Below, one piece after another: positions 11,008-28,967 of a stretch of DNA of 38,300 bases; the first letter of the stretch is position 1, and each line of letters opens with the position of its first letter. The stretch is from positions 1 through 38,300 of the forward strand of contig NZ_FQUI01000018.1 in assembly GCF_900129175.1 (NCBI RefSeq). The letters run 5' to 3'. The notes under the pieces were generated by a model that saw only the letters and a list, made by a program, of their open reading frames with translations, had not been told where the DNA came from and made no database searches. The stretch comes from Marinitoga hydrogenitolerans DSM 16785 (GTDB taxonomy: Bacteria; Thermotogota; Thermotogae; Petrotogales; Petrotogaceae). The position numbers were made by a program, and so were the translations under genes.

Positions 11008-11054
11008 AAATATATAATATTAAAATAAATATATGAGATATGGGGGTTAATATT

Positions 11055-12749
11055 ATGATGAATAGGCATAAAATCATTTTCCCATTATTATTTATATCTA
11101 TGTTATTGATAATAGGGATGGGATTGTTTTTTTCTATTAACTATTATAATATAAATTTAAGCAAAGCGCAAGACTATATTAAAAGTGAGAATTCTGTTGT
11201 TGCTACATTCATTGATGATTATTTTACAGAATTAATTCATTTTACAGAAACATTTGCAAAAGATAAAGATTTTATCAATGCTGGATTTTCTAAAAAAAGT
11301 GAAGAAAAAGTTTTAGAAATATTGAAAAATTACAAGAATTCAAATAAAAATATCGCTTACATTTATACTGGTTATAAAAACAAAAAATTAGTTATTAACG
11401 ATTGGGAAGTACCTGAAGAATATGATCCAACAATTAGACCATGGTATATTGAAGGTATTAAAAATCCTAAAAGTGTATATATCGGAACACCTTATGAAGA
11501 ATATAAAACAAAAATATGGTTAATCTCTACAGGAAAAGCTTTAATTAACGAGAAAAATGAAGTAGTTGGTGTCTTATCTATAGATTGCTCTCTTAGTGAT
11601 TTTGTAAACTTAATAAACTCCGAATTAAGTTACAAAACAGGACAAACTTTTGTTATTAATGACAAAGGAACTATAATTCTACACAAAAATATAGAAAATA
11701 TAAACAAAAAATTTGAATATACTCATTTCGTTGGATCAAAAGGAATTATAAAAGATAATATTAATAATAAGAGCTATTACATAGCTTATACTAAATTAAA
11801 CTCATCTGGATGGTATATTGTTACTATGGTAGAGAAAGCTGAAGTTATGTCACCCATATACAAAGGCGTAATTTCTTATTCTATTATATCTATTTCTTTA
11901 CTTTTATCTTTTGTTATATTACAAAGTATATTAATATCTAATTTCAGGTTAAAAAAGTTGGTTGAAGAAAGAACAAAAGAGTTAGAACAAAAAAACAAAA
12001 AAATTATGGACAGCATTTTATATGCTAAAAATATACAAAATTCTATATTACCATCTGAAAAAATTTTAAAAAACAAATTCAAAGATTTTTTTATACTATG
12101 GAAACCTTCAAATATTGTAGGTGGCGATTTTTATTGGTATAAAGAAAGAAATGATGGTTCATTCTATATTGCAGTAGTTGATTGTACTGGTCATGGGGTG
12201 CCTGGAGCTTTGATGACAATGACTGCAAATTCTATATTAAACAGAATTATAGACGATACAAATTTAGTTAGTCCTTCAGATATACTTCAAAAATTAAATA
12301 TTTTATTTAAAAATGCTATTAACTCTTATAATAATGATTATAGATATGATGATGGAATGGAAATAGGTCTTTGTTATATTTCGAATAACAAATTAACATA
12401 TAGTGGTGCTGGTATATCTTTGTATTATACAAAAGATAATAAAACCATAAGAGTAAAAGGAGATAATAAGGGTATTGGATATAAAAGGTCTAAAACTGAT
12501 TATATCTTTAGTGAACATATTATTGAAATTGAAAGTAACATGAATTTTTATATAACTTCTGATGGATATGAAGATCAAAATAATCCTGAGGGAAAAAGAT
12601 TGGGCAGGAAAAATTTTGTTAATTTATTAAATAGCATTTATAAAGAACCGATGGATAAACAGAAAGAAGAAATTGAGAAATTTCTGAAAAATTATATGAA
12701 AAATGAAGAACAAAGAGACGACATTACTGTTATAGGTTTCAAATTATAG
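11055..12749 (+). CDS. siaA: SiaA-like membrane PP2C phosphatase with Cache sensor
   Basis: A 564-residue sensor phosphatase. TM1 is at about residues 7-28, followed by a periplasmic dCache-type domain with the RPWY motif near 128-131, TM2 near 273-297, a short coiled coil (LVEERTKELEQKN), and a SpoIIE/PP2C domain from about 320. The metal-binding acids of the phosphatase are present: VGGDFYW, VDCTGHGVPGA and RDDITVIGF. In Pseudomonas aeruginosa SiaA removes the phosphate from SiaC; here SiaB- and SiaC-like genes follow two and three genes downstream, which fixes the assignment. Unlike the Pseudomonas protein I see no HAMP domain between TM2 and the phosphatase. The ATG at 11055 is chosen because GGGGGT sits 8 nt upstream; the ATG at 11040 overlaps that site. 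Confidence 0.88.
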   Translation: MMNRHKIIFPLLFISMLLIIGMGLFFSINYYNINLSKAQDYIKSENSVVATFIDDYFTELIHFTETFAKDKDFINAGFSKKSEEKVLEILKNYKNSNKNIAYIYTGYKNKKLVINDWEVPEEYDPTIRPWYIEGIKNPKSVYIGTPYEEYKTKIWLISTGKALINEKNEVVGVLSIDCSLSDFVNLINSELSYKTGQTFVINDKGTIILHKNIENINKKFEYTHFVGSKGIIKDNINNKSYYIAYTKLNSSGWYIVTMVEKAEVMSPIYKGVISYSIISISLLLSFVILQSILISNFRLKKLVEERTKELEQKNKKIMDSILYAKNIQNSILPSEKILKNKFKDFFILWKPSNIVGGDFYWYKERNDGSFYIAVVDCTGHGVPGALMTMTANSILNRIIDDTNLVSPSDILQKLNILFKNAINSYNNDYRYDDGMEIGLCYISNNKLTYSGAGISLYYTKDNKTIRVKGDNKGIGYKRSKTDYIFSEHIIEIESNMNFYITSDGYEDQNNPEGKRLGRKNFVNLLNSIYKEPMDKQKEEIEKFLKNYMKNEEQRDDITVIGFKL

Positions 12750-12763
12750 GTGGTGATATTATT
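12749..12763 (+). promoter_or_regulatory. Ribosome binding site and AUU start of the SiaD-like gene
   Basis: GGTGGTGAT (12749-12757) matches the GGAGGTGAT consensus at 8 of 9 positions. It is followed after 3 nt by ATT at 12761-12763, in frame with the GGDEF domain. There is no ATG, GTG or TTG in this frame until 13010, which lies inside the conserved domain. Another ATT at 12758 is too close to the site. Confidence 0.6.
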
Positions 12764-13489
12764 TATTTAAAAAAAGAATTTGAAATTATAAAAAAGGCTG
12801 AGAATACTTTAAAGGAAAATCCTTCTTATGATTCTTTAAAAGAATCATATAGATCTTTATTAGATGAATATAAAAAATTACTTGATGAATATTACAAATT
12901 AATTCATATCTCAGATATTCAGGATAATTATCTTTTTGAACTAAAGGAGAAATTAGAAAGAAAAAATATTTATTTAAAAAATTTATCTGAAAAAGACACA
13001 TTAACTGGATTGTATAATAGACTAAAATTCGATGAAATCATTAACTATCAAATCAATTTATATAAAAGAGAAGGAAGAAAGTTTTCCTTAATTATGATGG
13101 ACTTAGATAAATTTAAGAAAATTAATGATGCATTTGGACATAATATTGGTGATAGAATTTTAATAGAACTTTCAAAGATATTAAGAAGAAACCTAAGAAA
13201 AATCGACTTTGTTTTCAGATGGGGAGGAGACGAATTTTTAATAATCTTGCCTAATACCAACTTAAAATCTGCTATAAAAGTGGCTCATAAACTTAAAAAA
13301 ATTATTTTATTAGATAAAAATTTAAAAAACATAACCGCAAGTATTGGATTAACTGTTTATAACGGAGAAAACATCGACGAAATAATAAATATAGCTGATA
13401 CTGCATTATATAATTCAAAAAATTCTGGAAGAAATAAAATATTTTTCTATCAAAGGGGGGAGTTTTTTGAATCCGAAAAACATTCTTGA
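12761..13489 (+). CDS. siaD: SiaD-like diguanylate cyclase with AUU start
   Basis: A GGDEF enzyme that makes c-di-GMP from two GTP. Read from the AUU at 12761 it has 242 residues: a helical N-terminal region of about 80 residues, then SEKDTLTGLYNRLKFDE, the MMDLDKFKKINDAFGH block and RWGGDEF. The inhibitory-site motif RKID lies five residues before GGDEF, so product feedback is expected. Pseudomonas SiaD has the same plan, a helical N-terminus that binds SiaC followed by GGDEF. Starting at the first ordinary codon (TTG 13010) would remove the helical region and the conserved DTLTG block. The upstream frame is open and gene-like back to the ribosome site 11 nt after siaA. The SiaB-like gene overlaps its end by 23 bp. 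No membrane segment, so it is cytosolic. Confidence 0.8.
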   Translation: MYLKKEFEIIKKAENTLKENPSYDSLKESYRSLLDEYKKLLDEYYKLIHISDIQDNYLFELKEKLERKNIYLKNLSEKDTLTGLYNRLKFDEIINYQINLYKREGRKFSLIMMDLDKFKKINDAFGHNIGDRILIELSKILRRNLRKIDFVFRWGGDEFLIILPNTNLKSAIKVAHKLKKIILLDKNLKNITASIGLTVYNGENIDEIINIADTALYNSKNSGRNKIFFYQRGEFFESEKHS

Positions 13490-14012
13490 AATTAAAGATC
13501 AAATTCGAAAAAATAATATTATTATGAGTTTTATAGGGCCATTTTCTCAAGGTATAATAGAAGAAATAGGAAGAGCATTGAGAGAATATATAAAAAATGA
13601 TAAAAATCATAACACATCTTCTAACAATATTTTTTCTGTATTTATTGAACAAAGTCAAAACATTAAAAACTATGAACGAATTTTATCTAAAAAAGAAATC
13701 AATCATGTATTTTTAGAATCAATAATATTAATTGGAAAAAACGAACAAAACTATTTTATCAGTTCTGGAAATATAGTAAAAAAAGAGGATATAGAAAATC
13801 TTAAAGAACGTATAGATGAGATAAATTCCTTAAGTAAAGATGAAATTAAATTATTATATAAAAAACGATTAAGAGAAAATTTCAAAAGCAAAACCGGCGG
13901 TGCTGGCTTGGGATTTCTTGAAATGGCTAAAAGGGCTTCAAATAAATTTGAATATGATTTTATTAAACTCGATAATAATTATTATTATTTTATTCTAGTA
14001 ATAACGGTCTAA
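13467..14012 (+). CDS. siaB: SiaB-like serine/threonine kinase
   Basis: A 181-residue protein of the SiaB/DUF6272 family, a small GHKL-fold kinase. The N box is FIEQSQNIKNY (about 59-69), and a Gly-rich ATP-lid segment GGAGLGFLEMAKRA lies at about 144-157. In Pseudomonas this kinase phosphorylates SiaC on one threonine, countering the SiaA phosphatase. The start is a TTG placed 4 nt after GGGGAG, overlapping the end of the SiaD-like gene. The SiaC-like gene follows after 15 bp with its own GGAGGT. Family, size and neighbours all agree. Confidence 0.88.
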   Translation: MNPKNILEIKDQIRKNNIIMSFIGPFSQGIIEEIGRALREYIKNDKNHNTSSNNIFSVFIEQSQNIKNYERILSKKEINHVFLESIILIGKNEQNYFISSGNIVKKEDIENLKERIDEINSLSKDEIKLLYKKRLRENFKSKTGGAGLGFLEMAKRASNKFEYDFIKLDNNYYYFILVITV

Positions 14013-14027
14013 ATAGGAGGTATTAAA

Positions 14028-14408
14028 ATGGAAAAATTAATTATTAAACCAACTAAATCTACACCAGAAATAATATTTGATCCTGAAAAAAACATCTTAT
14101 CTATTAAAGGTGAATCATATCCAGAAAATTCCTTTGATTTTTATAATCCTATATTTGAATGGTTAGAAAATTATATAAATAATTTAGATATTGAAACAGA
14201 AGTTATTTTTAATTTTGATATTAGTTATTTAAATACCAGTAGCACAAAATCAATTATGTTTATATTAGACATTTTAGAAGAAGCTTATAACAAGAATAAA
14301 AATGTGAAAATTAATTGGTATTATGATGAAGATAATGAATTTTCTTATGAAATAGCGGAAAATTTTATGGAAGATTTAACCATACCATTTACACTAATAA
14401 AAAAATAG
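14028..14408 (+). CDS. siaC: SiaC-like phospho-switch protein
   Basis: A 126-residue protein of the SiaC/DUF1987 family, which has a STAS-like fold. The family signature FDISYLNTSSTKSI is clear. T70 in this motif is the likely counterpart of the threonine (Thr68) phosphorylated in Pseudomonas SiaC. In that system unphosphorylated SiaC binds SiaD and activates c-di-GMP synthesis. The start ATG follows GGAGGTATTAAA. It is followed by a CheA-like kinase gene, an addition to the four-gene Pseudomonas operon. The mechanism is carried over from Pseudomonas and is untested here. Confidence 0.9.
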   Translation: MEKLIIKPTKSTPEIIFDPEKNILSIKGESYPENSFDFYNPIFEWLENYINNLDIETEVIFNFDISYLNTSSTKSIMFILDILEEAYNKNKNVKINWYYDEDNEFSYEIAENFMEDLTIPFTLIKK

Positions 14409-14437
14409 TGAGATTATTCTCCCAAAGAGGTGTTTTA

Positions 14438-15985
14438 ATGGACAGTATTTTTTCAAATGAATATAAGAAATTGGAAAATCATAAAATTTTTTTAAAAAAT
14501 AATAGTTTTTCTGTGGAAAATTTAATTGATAAATATGAATGTTTGATCAAAGATTATGAGCACTTGTTGAGTCAAACAAAAAAGATTTCTAAGATAAGCG
14601 ATATTAATCAAATGATGTTAATTGAAACAAAAAAAAGATTAAGGTTATTATTGGACAACTCTGATGAAGGCTTTTTAATGTTTGGAAAAGATTTCTTGAT
14701 TCACAATGAATATAGCAAGGAATGTTTAAATATTTTTGAAACAGATGATATTTCAAAAAAAAATATTTTAGAATTATTATATAATTCAGATTATGAAATC
14801 GAAAAAAAAATATTATCTCATATTTTTGAAAATGATGAAAAAGATTATGTATATTTGGAATTATTACCAGATGAAGTTAAAATAAATAATAAAATATTAA
14901 AAGTAAAATATAAGATTATTTATTTAGACTCTGTAAAAAGGGTTATGTGCATAATACAAGACATTACGGAAAAAAAAGAATTAGAAGAAAAAATAGAAAA
15001 TGAAAAAAATAATACAAAAATGCTATTGAATGTTGTAATGAATAGAGATATTTTAAAAAAGAATATAGAGGATTATATTAGATATGTTACAAAACAGATA
15101 TATAATGATATATCTGTATATTCAATTCAAGATTTTATTATGAATTTTTATAAAAATATACATACTTATAAAGGTTTATTTTTACAGTGGCACTTTATAA
15201 AAACCGGAAAAAATTTAGATAAACTTGAAAATGAATTAGATTTATTAAAAAAATCAAATATAAAAGATAAAAATAAAGTAGTAACTTTTATAAAAGACAG
15301 AAAGCTAAATACTTTTCTAAATGAAGAATTGAATTTTATCAATAGTGTTTTAGGAAAAGATTTTCTAAAAAACGAAATGATCTGGATAGATAAAAATAAA
15401 ATAATAATTTTAGAAAAATATATTGAAAATATTTTACCAGAAAAATATTCTCAATTAATATTGGCTGAAATAAAAAAACTTTATTTCAAAGATATAAAAG
15501 ATATATTTGAAACATATAAAAAATATACCTTTGAATTAGCAGAGAAATTTGGGAAAAAGATTGATTCGTTTGAAATTGACTCTAACTTGTTTATAGATAT
15601 TGATGATTATTATGACTTTATAAAGTCATTAATCCATATATTTAGAAATATTGTCATACATGGCATAGAAAGACCAGAAGAAAGACTTATTTTAAATAAA
15701 ACACCAGGTGGTAATATTAAATGTAAAATATATGAAAAAGAAAATATTATTCATATTATAATATCAGATGATGGAAAAGGCATAGAAAATATAGATAAAA
15801 TATTCGAATATGGCTATACATCAAAATATGAATCAAATATATACGCTGGAAAAGGAATTGGATTATATTCCGTAAAGAATGAAGTTGAAATTTTAAATGG
15901 TAAAATTTCCGTTTATTCTGAACCAAATAAAGGTACAACTTTTAACATCACAATTCCCAGGAGGTATCTATGTCAAAAATATTGA
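14438..15985 (+). CDS. CheA-like hybrid: PAS, Hpt-like histidine and ATPase domain
   Basis: A 515-residue cytosolic protein. It has an N-terminal helical segment, a PAS-like domain at about 66-180 ending in the linker CIIQDITEKKELEEK, a helical region with NIHTYKG around H242 that resembles the phosphorylated His of CheA/Hpt domains (HxxKG), and a GHKL ATPase domain. In the ATPase, IFRNIVIHGIE (402-411) is the CheA-type N box, SDDGKGIE the G1 box and GKGIGL the G2 box. It has no CheW-binding or response-regulator-binding domain of CheA type. It presumably passes phosphate to the response regulator encoded next, whose start overlaps by 16 bp. The ATG at 14438 follows AGAGGTGTTTTA; the GTG at 14408 has no ribosome site. 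Confidence 0.75.
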   Translation: MDSIFSNEYKKLENHKIFLKNNSFSVENLIDKYECLIKDYEHLLSQTKKISKISDINQMMLIETKKRLRLLLDNSDEGFLMFGKDFLIHNEYSKECLNIFETDDISKKNILELLYNSDYEIEKKILSHIFENDEKDYVYLELLPDEVKINNKILKVKYKIIYLDSVKRVMCIIQDITEKKELEEKIENEKNNTKMLLNVVMNRDILKKNIEDYIRYVTKQIYNDISVYSIQDFIMNFYKNIHTYKGLFLQWHFIKTGKNLDKLENELDLLKKSNIKDKNKVVTFIKDRKLNTFLNEELNFINSVLGKDFLKNEMIWIDKNKIIILEKYIENILPEKYSQLILAEIKKLYFKDIKDIFETYKKYTFELAEKFGKKIDSFEIDSNLFIDIDDYYDFIKSLIHIFRNIVIHGIERPEERLILNKTPGGNIKCKIYEKENIIHIIISDDGKGIENIDKIFEYGYTSKYESNIYAGKGIGLYSVKNEVEILNGKISVYSEPNKGTTFNITIPRRYLCQKY

Positions 15986-16617
15986 TTATTGAAGATAATA
16001 TAAATATTAGAAATATTTTAAAAAAATATTTGAAAGAATTAGGACATGAAATTGTTGGAGAATTTGATGATATATTCGGTATTATCAACAAATGTCAAAA
16101 ACTAAACCCAGAAGTTATAACCCTAGATTTATACTTAAAAAATACCGATGGAATAAACGCTATAAAACTTTTAAAAGAACAATTCCCTAATTTAAAAATA
16201 ATTGTTATAAGCGTTTCTAATAAAAAACCAGAAATATTTAGAGCATTAAATTATGGAGCTGACTATTTTATAATTAAACCAGTAGATAAAGAAAAATTAA
16301 AGAAAGCATTCGAGAAAATTCAAATATCTCAAAATAAAATTTCTAAAATTAGGAAATTGTATAAAAGAGAAGAAGAAAATATTTTAGATGTAAAAAATTT
16401 TAATAGTACTCTAACAATTTATATAAAAAAACCATTAAATGGTAAAACCATAGAAAAAATTAATAAAGTTGTAGATGGATTATTAATAATTAAACCTTTA
16501 AAAATTGTATTTAGCTATTTTGATAAAAATGAAAGTGTAGGAAAAATAGAGAAATCATTAAATGATATTATAATAAAAATTAGAAATCATGGTGGAATTG
16601 CAGAAATTGAAAAATAA
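15970..16617 (+). CDS. Response regulator with an uncharacterised C-terminal domain
   Basis: The receiver domain (residues 1-120) is complete: acidic pair E8/D9, phospho-acceptor D53 in TLDLYL, a Ser in IVISVS, and K103 in IIKP. Residues about 130-215 form a separate domain with an alpha/beta pattern (STLTIYIKKP, LKIVFSYFD, IRNHGGIAEIEK) that I do not recognise. Its layout could be STAS-like, which would fit the SiaC neighbourhood, but this is a guess. No DNA-binding motif is visible, so output is probably by protein contact. The gene overlaps the CheA-like kinase and has its own GGAGGTATCT. Confidence 0.78.
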   Translation: MSKILIIEDNINIRNILKKYLKELGHEIVGEFDDIFGIINKCQKLNPEVITLDLYLKNTDGINAIKLLKEQFPNLKIIVISVSNKKPEIFRALNYGADYFIIKPVDKEKLKKAFEKIQISQNKISKIRKLYKREEENILDVKNFNSTLTIYIKKPLNGKTIEKINKVVDGLLIIKPLKIVFSYFDKNESVGKIEKSLNDIIIKIRNHGGIAEIEK

Positions 16618-21009: not shown

Positions 21010-23097
21010 TTATATCTTGAATTTTTTTATTAATTGCATTAATGATTGAGATAATTTATTCCCCTCTTCTGCTGAATTATTAACTTCCCGAGAACTCTGA
21101 TTTTGCTGCTCTATAGCTCTTACCATATGTTTTACCTGATCAGATATTTCTTCTATAGTTTTTGAAATTCTATCCATTGCAGCGGCCATTTCTTCTGTAG
21201 ATGCACTTTGTTCCTCTGCTGCCGAAGACAATTCATGTACTTTCATATTCATCTCTTCTACTTTCTCACGAATTAAATTAAATTGAGAAACTATATTGTC
21301 AGATTCATTATCTATATCTTTTATAATTTTAACTACTTTATTTGTAGCTTTATTTGCACTCAATGCCCCATCTTTTACGGAAATTAAGATTTTTGCTATC
21401 TCTTCAGTGGATGATTTGCTTTGCTCTGCAAGTTTTCTTATTTCATCTGCAACAACTGCAAATCCTTTCCCAGCTTCACCAGCCCTTGCTGCCTCGATTG
21501 CTGCATTTAACGCTAATAAATTTGTTTGCTCTGTAATTTTGTTTATAGTCTCTACAATATCACCAATATTTTGAACTTTTTCTGATAAATCATTAACTTT
21601 CTCTTGTGTATCTTTTGATTCTTCAACTGCTGTTTCAACTATTTCTGCTATTTTATTAACTGATTTTTCTCCCTTTAAAGCTGCTTCTGATGTTTCATTA
21701 GCTTTGTAAGATAATTCCTCCGCATTTGTCGAAATCAATTGTGCCGAACTCGCAATTTCTTCTACACCTGAAGAAACCTCTTCTACGGATGCTGACGCAT
21801 CTTCAGTATTTGATTCTATAATTTTAGATTGGGATGTTAAATCTTCTGAAATTGCATTTTGTTCTTCTGAAATTGATGCAAGCGAATCCGAGGATAATGA
21901 TAATTTATTTGATGCTTCATATATTGATTTCATCGAATCACGCAAATCTCTTGCCATTACATCTAATGTTTTAGCCATTTGAGCTATTTCATCTTTACCT
22001 TTAAGTTTAAAATCAATTGTTAAATCACCTTTACCAAATTTCTGAATTTTTCCTCTTAACAAATTAATTGATTTTATAATATTTTTTATAATAATATATG
22101 CAAAAATAATCGCTAAAATTACACCAATTATTATCGATGAAATAACTATAGTTATTGCCTTTTGTGCATTCGATGTTGTTTCTTCTGCTTTCTTTGCTGC
22201 TTGAATTTTATTATAATCAACTATTTTTTTCAATACTTCAGATGCACTTTCAAAAAGAGGTAAGTTAATATTTAAACTCTGGTCTGCCATTTGTTCTTTT
22301 AATTGCAAGGCTTCATCTGCTATTTGATTAATAGTTTCAAATGTGTCAAAAATATTTTCCAGATACGGTATAAGTGAATTATTATAAACCCTTTGCATTA
22401 ACTCTATTTGCTTTTCATTCTTTTTCTTTATTACCGTATTTATTGTTTTAGCTGTTTTTAAAAATCCTTCGTTATATTTTTTCATTTCTTCAAACATATC
22501 AGCTAAATAGTCATTTTCTGTTTGATAACTATCTAACCATTTTCCAAAAGCACTTTTTCTTGGATTTAGTTCTTCATTAAATGGCTCTTTTTCTACTATT
22601 GCTTTTTCAATAATCCATGCCAATCTGTATAATTCACTTTCATAGGTTTTTACAGCAAGTTTTAATGATTTAGGATCAAGTATTTTTGTTTCATCCAATT
22701 TCTTTGATAGTTCTATAAAACTTTCATGAGCACTTTTCCATGCGTTTAATCTATTTTTATATTCTTTCCAATATTTCATCTCTTCCTCATTCAAATTAAA
22801 TGTTTCATATTCTTTAATCAATTTATTAATTGAATCCCATGTTTCTTGCATACCCTGATATTCATTATCTCTAAGTTGTTGATCTGTTAAATCGAGTAAT
22901 GCCATTTCAGTTTTTTCAATAAGCGTTTGTAATTGATGAATTGATAATATTTTTTGAACTTTTGGTAGGGTTTCATTTGCAATATTTGAAACACTATTTT
23001 TTAATTCATTTGTTGATAATAGCCCTAAAACTCCTATCATGACAGCTATCAACAATACTACAGAAAATCCTAATATGATTTTAGCTTTTAAACTCAT
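21010..23097 (-). CDS. Methyl-accepting chemotaxis protein
   Basis: A 695-residue chemoreceptor with TM1 near residues 5-28, a helical sensor region to about 310, TM2 near 313-337, HAMP 338-390, and a long signalling coiled coil. The hairpin tip is canonical: [24 protein letters not shown] / [14 protein letters not shown]. Within the sensor region, [11 protein letters not shown] (157-167) and [11 protein letters not shown] (181-191) resemble the two halves of chemoreceptor zinc-binding (CZB) domains (HxxW and CxxGKW), but the His and Cys ligands are replaced. The ligand is unknown. The ATG at 23097 follows GGAGGTGAAAAA; the frame opens at 23133 without support. Monocistronic, with its own promoter. 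Confidence 0.93.
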
Positions 23098-23124
23098 TTT
23101 TTCACCTCCAGATACTATATTAAT

Positions 23125-23153
23125 ATTATACACTATAATAACTAATTTTTAAA
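23125..23153 (-). promoter_or_regulatory. Probable promoter of the chemoreceptor gene
   Basis: A minus-strand -10 TATAAT (23125-23130) with a 4/6 -35 TTTAAA (23148-23153) at 17-nt spacing. It lies about 28 nt from the start codon. Confidence 0.5.
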
Positions 23154-26647: not shown

Positions 26648-27103
26648 TAATATTTTTTCAATATTTATTATTAAAACTATTTCTCCATTAAAAGAAAAGA
26701 TCTTATCAACAAAATAAAATTCCTGCATTTCTTCTCCAACATCTTTCAATATTCCTATATCAACTGGAATAATATCTACTATTTCTTTCGTAAAAAATCC
26801 ATAATTTTTTTTATCAAAAATAAAATTTATCACATACATTTTTTCATTATACTCCTGAAATTCATCATTTACAAGCCTTTTTAAATCTATTAATGTTATA
26901 GGTTGATTATCTTTGTTTATCACTCCAACAATATATTCTGGAGTATTTGGTAATTCTTTTTTTTCTGAAGAACTCATAATCTCTTTTATAATATTTGTTT
27001 TTAAAGCATATAACAAATTTCCTATTTTGAAAATTGCATAATAATCTATTTTATCTTTAAGAATTAAAAGTTTTTTTAAATTTTCAAAGGGATTCTTCTG
27101 CAT
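26627..27103 (-). CDS. CheW-domain protein
   Basis: A 158-residue protein with one CheW domain: YYAIFKIGNLLYALKTNIIKEIM, LPNTPEYIVGVINKDNQPITLIDLKRL, and the C-terminal strands FYFVDKIFSFNGEIVLIINIEKIL. CheW couples chemoreceptors to the kinase CheA. Its start (ATG at 27103, 4 nt after a GGAAGTGAC site) lies 20 bp inside the end of the chemoreceptor-like gene, so the two are co-translated and probably act together. It has a short charged N-terminal extension. A CheV-type receiver domain is absent. Confidence 0.87.
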   Translation of the reverse strand: MQKNPFENLKKLLILKDKIDYYAIFKIGNLLYALKTNIIKEIMSSSEKKELPNTPEYIVGVINKDNQPITLIDLKRLVNDEFQEYNEKMYVINFIFDKKNYGFFTKEIVDIIPVDIGILKDVGEEMQEFYFVDKIFSFNGEIVLIINIEKILKNKTPV

Positions 27104-28967
27104 TAAAGTCACTTCCTGTTTCTTCTTTTTTTTCTATTTCTTCTAGTTTTCTAAATATTTCTTCAAGATTCTTTGGGGTTTTTTTAGAACTAAACATTTT
27201 TTTCAACTCTTCATAATTTTTCTCAATTTCTTTAAAACTTTCAACTATATTCTCCATAATATTTTTGTTCTTATTTATAATTAGCTTCAATAAATTAAGA
27301 GCATTTTTTACCTGAGCTGCTGATATTGAATATTCTTTAATAAAATTCTCAATGTCTGTATAATTAGTTGTTACTTTTCTTATTTCAGAAATGTTTGAAT
27401 CTATATTTTTAAATAATTCATCTAAAACATTCTTATACTCATTTAAATTCTCAATTATATGAGATACATGCGAATATGTTTTTACATTATAATCTTTTAA
27501 AACATAAGACATATCCCTCATATCAGCCGCAATTACAGCAAATGATAAAGCACCTTTCTCTTTCGATGCTTCAAGTGCTGCATTTAAAGATAATATTTCT
27601 GCTCTAAATGACAAATCGCTTACTTTCTCTGAAATATCAGTTATTCTATTTATCAAATCATTAAACAAAGATATTTTAGACTTAGATTTCAGCAAATTAT
27701 GGCGCAATTTTTCAAGTTCTTCATCATATAATGAAAGTTTATTCTTGAAATTTTCTGAAACATTTTGAGAATCATTTACCGCCTGAGAAATTGCTTCAAA
27801 TGTTTTTGAAAGTTTTTCAACAGTTTCATTTTCCTCATTTATTCGAGATATTTCTTCTTTAATCAATTCACCAGTTTCATTAATATTATTTTCTAATTTA
27901 TTTATTTTCCTGGAAAAGTTATTAAAATTTTCTTTTAAATTCACGGTAGTCAATTGTAAATTATCAGAAAAATCAACAAACATGGGTTCTTTCACATTTA
28001 TTTCTATATTATCGAAATTCAATTCATTTACTTTTTTTAACTCCTTTTTTAAAACTTCTATAGAGTTATAAAATCTCTTTTTTAAAATAATATTATTAAA
28101 AAGCACTTCTAATAAAATCAAAACTATTAAAAACATTAATCCTATCAAATAATACTTATTAAAATCAGGAGAAATTAAGTTTTTTTCTATATAAAATCCT
28201 ATTCTCCATCCTACAGAATTAATTGGACTAACAAATAATAAATAATCCTTTTTGTTTTTTTTAACTTCTAAAAAACCATGAGAATTTTTCAAATCTCTTA
28301 TTATATTTTCTCTAAAATTTTTGGCAAATGTCCCAGAGTTTATACTACCATCATTATTTACACTAAAATAAGTTCCCAAATTATCTATAAAAAATAGTTC
28401 CCCTTGTTTTTTAAATTTAAATTTATTTGAATCTAAAAAAACATTTTTTAAATTCAAAGCCCCACCAAAAATATACTTTTTACCATTATCATAATGTTCT
28501 AATGCAATTATAATAGCAACATCTCCCGAAATTTTCGACGTAAATATATCGCTAATTGCCCATTGTTTGTTATTTGTAAATATCTCTTGAAAATATCTAT
28601 ATCTTGAAATATTAGTGAAAATATTAGAACTTGAAATACTTTCTCCATCAGAATTTGCTACAAAAAATTCTTCGAATTCAGGAAATTTTTTTAATTGATT
28701 TTTTAAATATTTCAAAACTTTTCCTGTTTCTGTTGAATCATACGAAAAATCTTTTGGCATTAATTTCAATTTTTCAATTTCACTTTTAAAATATAGTGAA
28801 ATATAATTACCTCTTTCATTTAAGTTATCCATTATACTTTCTGAAACAGGATCAGAAATATTTTTGATTAAATCAAATTTGAAAAAATAAATTATAGAAA
28901 ATACCGATATAATCAAAAGTATAATCGTTACTAAATTCAAAAGCCCTTTCATAGATATCTTAGACAT
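27084..28967 (-). CDS. Divergent chemoreceptor-like protein with dCache sensor
   Basis: A 627-residue membrane protein with TM1 near residues 9-29, an extracytoplasmic dCache-like region (about 35-265; FFVANSDGESISSS, SRYRYFQEIF, INSVGWRIGFYI), TM2 near 272-296, and a long coiled coil. The receptor hairpin tip is recognisable but altered: AEILSLNAALEASKEKGALSFAVIAADMRDMSYVLKDY in place of the standard [28 protein letters not shown] see no clear HAMP. The altered tip and the dedicated CheW gene suggest it signals in a separate cluster or has lost CheA control. It starts 11 bp after panC ends. Confidence 0.8.
   Translation of the reverse strand: MSKISMKGLLNLVTIILLIISVFSIIYFFKFDLIKNISDPVSESIMDNLNERGNYISLYFKSEIEKLKLMPKDFSYDSTETGKVLKYLKNQLKKFPEFEEFFVANSDGESISSSNIFTNISRYRYFQEIFTNNKQWAISDIFTSKISGDVAIIIALEHYDNGKKYIFGGALNLKNVFLDSNKFKFKKQGELFFIDNLGTYFSVNNDGSINSGTFAKNFRENIIRDLKNSHGFLEVKKNKKDYLLFVSPINSVGWRIGFYIEKNLISPDFNKYYLIGLMFLIVLILLEVLFNNIILKKRFYNSIEVLKKELKKVNELNFDNIEINVKEPMFVDFSDNLQLTTVNLKENFNNFSRKINKLENNINETGELIKEEISRINEENETVEKLSKTFEAISQAVNDSQNVSENFKNKLSLYDEELEKLRHNLLKSKSKISLFNDLINRITDISEKVSDLSFRAEILSLNAALEASKEKGALSFAVIAADMRDMSYVLKDYNVKTYSHVSHIIENLNEYKNVLDELFKNIDSNISEIRKVTTNYTDIENFIKEYSISAAQVKNALNLLKLIINKNKNIMENIVESFKEIEKNYEELKKMFSSKKTPKNLEEIFRKLEEIEKKEETGSDFNAEESL

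Follow-up and report, generated by a model that had tools for sequence, protein, structure and literature searches.

Gene content of the locus

We analysed a 38,300-nucleotide stretch of the genome of Marinitoga hydrogenitolerans DSM 16785 (contig NZ_FQUI01000018.1, positions 1 to 38,300; hereafter the window). It contains six closely spaced genes on the + strand, designated A, D, B, C, K and R in this order, which combine a SiaABC-type threonine phosphorylation switch with a diguanylate cyclase (DGC), a CheA-like histidine kinase and a receiver protein. What is new here is a predicted SiaC-type docking stalk at the N-terminus of the kinase K. Sequence and gene neighbourhood were the basis for assigning the protein families, the catalytic and switch residues, the homology of the stalks and the linkage. 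Open reading frame (ORF) coordinates and profile searches bore out the gene order and spacing given in an initial annotation of this DNA, including the receiver protein as the last gene of the run.

11055–12749, + strand: A, dCache sensor and SpoIIE/PP2C phosphatase, SiaA-like (Pfam dCache_1 2e-25, SpoIIE 6.9e-17)
12758–13489, + strand: D, SiaD-like DGC with stalk (GGDEF 3.1e-45; GGDEF and RxxD motifs)
13467–14012, + strand: B, SiaB-family protein kinase, catalytic Glu61 retained (NF038262, DUF6272)
14028–14408, + strand: C, SiaC phosphoprotein with switch threonine T70, codon at 14235 (Pfam PF09345)
14438–15985, + strand: K, CheA-like histidine kinase of 515 amino acids; alternative GTG start at 14408
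15970–16617, + strand: R, receiver domain (Asp53) and a C-terminal domain from about residue 119 (Response_reg 2.7e-24)

The products of B and C were assigned with scores far above the cut-offs. B reached 137.6 bits against DUF6272 (cut-off 26.6) and 180.5 bits against SiaB_fam_kinase NF038262 (cut-off 85), and its alignment with the SiaB structure 6kko showed E61 to be present, within FIEQSQN. C scored 145.9 bits against the Pfam SiaC/DUF1987 family (cut-off 24.5) and contains the phospho-threonine motif YLNTSS; full-length alignment with Pseudomonas aeruginosa SiaC (6kko/6kkp/7e6g) equated T70 with T68. The profile searches, a test set beforehand, thus assigned the gene at 13467 to the SiaB family and that at 14028 to the SiaC family. 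The product of A contains the motifs GGDFYW, DCTGHG and RDDIT, and an additional in-frame ATG lies upstream of the gene, at 11040. A matched the NCBIfam SiaA model with 226 bits over its C-terminal half only, and D matched the SiaD model with 178.7 bits. As these scores are below the respective equivalog cut-offs of 700 and 290, we refer to the two proteins as SiaA-like and SiaD-like.

The 5' end of D is devoid of ATG, GTG and TTG codons, both in the window and in the closest species (locus L017). The two loci have in common a Shine-Dalgarno-like AGGTGGTGA(T/G) ahead of ATTATT (12748–12763 in the window), and GAGGTGATATTATT is found in locus L014. As the Shine-Dalgarno-like element is kept before ATTATT, initiation of D at an ATT codon is suggested; the start is likely the ATT at 12758 or 12761, after AGGTGGTGAT.

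HATPase_c was the sole Pfam domain of K over cut-off (9.2e-17). A profile of the K family matched the P3/P4 region of CheA (4xiv, 5.8e-28, profile positions 317–521), indicating that the P4 kinase domain is present, and K contains an HTYKG motif, the N box RNIVIHG and the G boxes DDGKGI and GKGIGL. A CheW-like regulatory domain (P5) was not found, as Pfam gave HATPase_c alone and the protein ends after this domain; hence we call K CheA-like rather than CheA. The description of K as a PAS-Hpt-ATPase protein held for the ATPase. PAS was not recovered in the window copy (one homologue gave E 0.016), and the Hpt assignment comes down to HTYKG, whose His is invariant in six species, with no Pfam Hpt match. 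Searching the genome contigs with K returned one distant kinase and nothing else. The C-terminal domain of R had no relative in Pfam or PDB searches; it is confined to the seven genomes of the genus, where it always adjoins K. A STAS-like fold for this domain was considered from its strand/helix pattern and was not adopted.

The stalk of K and its distribution

The N-termini of D and K match each other, a relationship first seen in the loci of related genomes. The corresponding segments in the window are as follows.

14510–14653, + strand: stalk of K, residues 25–72 (stalk profile A1, E 2.2e-17)
14582–14611, + strand: putative SiaC docking motif of the K stalk, KISKISDINQ (S54, D55, Q58)
12830–12967, + strand: stalk of D (stalk profile A1, E 8.2e-15)
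12905–12922, + strand: docking motif of the D stalk, HISDIQ; Ser and Asp kept, Gln replaced by Asp

In the SiaC–SiaD crystal structure, S82 and Q86 of SiaD hydrogen-bond T68 of SiaC, and D83 is among the other contacts (PMC8457831). The N-terminal coiled-coil motif KISKISDINQMM of K corresponds to the SiaC docking site KVARISDRYQQM of SiaD, the aligned segments being KVARISDRYQQMMRD in SiaD, KISKISDINQMMLIE in K and KLIHISDIQDNYLFE in D. Gap-free comparison of the K stalk with the SiaD stalk in 7e6g showed identity at K77, I81, S82, D83, Q86 and M88 and conservative changes at R80 (to K) and D91 (to E). The KISDIN core of K is invariant in six species. D has retained the Ser and Asp and lost the Gln, and in the closest species the Ser is lost as well. 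The wording 'helical N-terminus' used for D in the initial annotation understated this segment: it is a homologue of the stalk by which SiaD binds SiaC, and it also occurs on K, where it had gone unnoticed.

A profile was built from eight DGC stalks, none of them from this genus, and scored against 2125 stop-to-stop ORFs of 38 loci. Every match with E < 0.3 was a SiaC-linked stalk gene. K gave 1e-4, D 1.2e-4 and a histidine kinase of Azospirillum 1.4e-13, compared to 0.092 for the best shuffled sequence. A second profile, made from sixteen kinase, cyclase and phosphatase stalks, had the SiaD structure 7e6g as its top PDB match (7.8e-7), with both SiaC-binding motifs in register; a designed coiled coil ranked second (3.8e-4).

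Of 103 genomes of Thermotogota, the phylum of the window, 10 contained SiaC; strong matches were found in 15 of 247 genomes of Spirochaetota, the phylum of the Spirochaetaceae genome G103. Spirochaetota matches of 22–27 bits were taken as unrelated STAS proteins; co-occurrence would drop if they were counted as SiaC-positive. Nine of the ten SiaC genomes of Thermotogota contained the stalk, always at the SiaC locus, and the 93 SiaC-less genomes gave a single weak match, to an SMC-like protein. At the genus level the stalk was found in 3/4 SiaC genera versus 0/34 others (E 1e-3; Fisher 5e-4). With a profile trained without Spirochaetota, 12/15 SiaC genomes of that phylum were positive versus 2/232 others at E 1e-3 (Fisher 5e-16), and 10/15 versus 0/232 at E 1e-5. 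The genome counts for both phyla treat the genomes as independent, though they are related. The stalk thus occurs almost only in SiaC-bearing genomes. A stalk gene was not found at two Bacteroidota plasmid loci or at the A-B-C locus L078 (genome G280), and BLAST detected neither A, B nor a linked stalk gene at the Spirochaetota SiaC loci L069–L072. Locus L020 (G033), a 7 kb contig with an A-B-C set of a different kind followed by an ABC transporter and no stalk gene, was left out of the analysis because the contig is possibly foreign.

Next to SiaC, the stalk is part of GGDEF enzymes, of HisKA kinases (some of them with receiver and Hpt domains), of class III cyclases (some of them with GAF) and of SpoIIE phosphatases. 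A weaker stalk is carried by a LytS-type kinase in L115, whose contig also carries SiaC, and G282 and G323 have stalked GAF-cyclases away from SiaC, which stands there without A or B. Two stalked putative clients lie beside one SiaC in the window, L014, L017 and L022. In three Azospirillum species (B510, lipoferum 4B and ramasamyi), A-B-C precedes a HisKA kinase and a DGC that both carry the stalk, an independent case in which the two putative client kinds share an operon. Three further arrangements were observed. L106 of G108 encodes an HD-domain protein of the HD-GYP type that carries a SiaC-type stalk (862–1740, − strand), and SiaC was not found in that genome. In L067 a 92-residue open frame consisting mostly of stalk (1212–1487, + strand) lies just upstream of SiaC. 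L077 (G280) has two tandem A-B-C sets in 7 kb and a single stalked DGC, located between the first A and B.

Within the genus, A-B-C-K-R was retained in all complete loci (n = 6), the contig of G001 ending at C. A neighbourhood check found the kinase and regulator beside SiaC in all seven genomes; the refuting outcome named in the initial annotation, a kinase and regulator that never co-occur with the SiaB and SiaC genes, thus did not arise. Of the complete loci, those of the window, G005 and G002 include D and those of G003, G004 and G006 lack it; in the latter three genomes the stalk is found on K only. As the DGC is absent from three of the six complete loci, the partner that stays constant is K rather than D. 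In a tree of A, B, K and R, the genomes lacking D fall into more than one group; therefore, repeated loss of D is the simplest reading. The whole set lies at another place in G002 and one of its flanks is rearranged in G003, so that the set is a unit separate from the downstream housekeeping genes. The G003 locus (L015) has frame breaks in siaC, K, trmH and an enolase-like gene that look like sequencing errors. Downstream of the operon, the window contains two genes with a methyl-accepting chemotaxis protein signalling domain (21010–23133 and 27084–28967, − strand).

SiaC as a probable switch for the kinase and the cyclase

Judging from the predicted docking sites, one threonine phosphate probably controls two kinds of signalling enzyme in this operon, the DGC and the stalked sensor kinase. 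We consider it likely that the SiaC threonine switch docks on the stalk of K and thereby feeds a His-Asp pathway, with optional parallel synthesis of cyclic di-GMP (c-di-GMP) through D. The sensor phosphatase A and the dedicated kinase B would set the phosphorylation of T70 in C, a STAS-like SiaC. By analogy with SiaD, unphosphorylated SiaC would dock on the ISDxxQ motif in the N-terminal stalk of its client, a parallel coiled coil, and stabilise the client's active dimer, the dimer effect and its sign being those of P. aeruginosa SiaD, and the T70 phosphate would block docking. K, the constant client, would then phosphorylate the receiver of R, as their gene pairing and the intact His and Asp suggest. 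D, with its diverged stalk, would be an optional second client and output, and because its motif is degraded docking on D is perhaps weaker. The arrangement suggests a branch, from SiaC to K plus D where present, rather than a relay layered on the DGC.

Several points weigh against this interpretation. The support for a link from K to R consists of neighbourhood, constant co-occurrence and the intact His and Asp, and K could be inhibited rather than activated by SiaC. A PDB search with a profile made solely from the K proteins of this genus did not recover 7e6g, and in the K proteins of the other species His or Tyr takes the place of the motif Gln. Single-sequence structure models were too poor to use, with predicted local distance difference test (pLDDT) scores of 45 for R and 35 for K.

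The sign of the effect bears on a second reading, in which SiaC binds the K stalk and holds the kinase inactive, or serves as a scaffold for which K and D compete, balancing the two outputs. The evidence for docking is identical in this case, and the pairs of stalked clients next to one SiaC in the window and at three other loci are consistent with competition. SiaD, however, the sole client studied, is activated by docking, which yields the active dimer (PMC8457831), and we regard the opposite sign or a scaffold as unlikely.

The initial annotation had joined the threonine switch to a His-Asp relay in one operon and had both layers converge on c-di-GMP. The first part stands, as a SiaABC-type switch does occur with a kinase and a receiver. 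For the second, the kinase and regulator would form another layer acting on SiaC or SiaD. The DGC shares the operon in the window, and HsbA/HsbD offers a precedent in which a STAS partner controls a DGC downstream of a phosphorelay (PMC8457831), but K and R remain in the complete loci that have no DGC, the stalk there being on K only, and the D stalk has no docking Gln and, in L017, no Ser either. Convergence on c-di-GMP is therefore distinctly improbable. Finally, it is highly improbable that K and R form an ordinary two-component system merely sharing the operon, with a stalk that resembles SiaD's as any coiled coil might. In favour of this reading, the stalks are helical and compositionally biased, chance coiled coils account for some matches (GrpE in L118, an SMC-like protein in L088) and a designed coiled coil came second in the PDB search. 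Against it, the DGC-only profile selected SiaC-linked genes alone at E < 0.3, the stalk tracks SiaC genome-wide in two phyla, and conservation lies in the ISD core, not in the heptads.

Beyond this operon, there is a somewhat better than even chance that SiaC acts generally as a phospho-controlled clamp on coiled-coil stalks. Its docking module would have been joined to at least five classes of enzyme (GGDEF, HisKA, CheA-like, class III cyclases and SpoIIE), so that threonine phosphorylation would directly gate histidine-aspartate, cyclic-nucleotide, c-di-GMP and PP2C pathways via dimers. The SiaC clients characterised to date are of one kind, a DGC. If true, SiaC would be a shared adaptor that connects threonine phosphorylation to several other signalling currencies by way of a stalk common to histidine kinases, nucleotide cyclases and phosphatases. 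The stalk would also provide a sequence rule by which SiaC clients could be predicted in different phyla; for two-protein work, a thermophile has the advantage of yielding stable proteins.

Comparison with known systems

The SiaC papers that we found deal with the system of P. aeruginosa and its DGC client. A general suggestion that DUF1987 proteins modulate adjacent proteins was made in the structure paper (PMC8457831), and a paper on signalling evolution counted SiaABCD among merged pathways. Our literature search, with the first SiaABCD paper (EMBO J 2020) outside its coverage, returned no description of the stalk on kinases, cyclases or phosphatases.

Like SiaABCD of P. aeruginosa, the Marinitoga operon combines a PP2C phosphatase, a SiaB kinase with E61, the switch threonine of SiaC and a stalked GGDEF enzyme. 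It differs in gene order (A-D-B-C rather than A-B-C-D), in its dCache sensor and in the added stalked CheA-like kinase and receiver; moreover, its DGC is optional and has a stalk without the docking Gln. The Azospirillum plasmid loci likewise contain SpoIIE, SiaB and SiaC with a histidine kinase and a DGC, and an ISDxxQ-type stalk is present on both enzymes there. However, the Azospirillum kinase is of the HisKA/HATPase type rather than CheA-like, and no receiver gene comes next in the operon.

The catalytic part of K resembles CheA (P3/P4), with a CheA-type N box and the HTYKG motif. Unlike CheA, K has no CheW-like domain, its candidate phospho-acceptor sits inside the chain, and it carries the predicted SiaC-type stalk at its N-terminus, followed by a middle region without family assignment. 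In the HptB-HsbR-HsbA-HsbD system of P. aeruginosa, a STAS-type partner also controls a DGC and partner switching meets a phosphorelay (as cited in PMC8457831). In that system the STAS partner acts downstream of the phosphorelay, whereas in the Marinitoga operon the STAS-like partner appears to have the kinase as its client.

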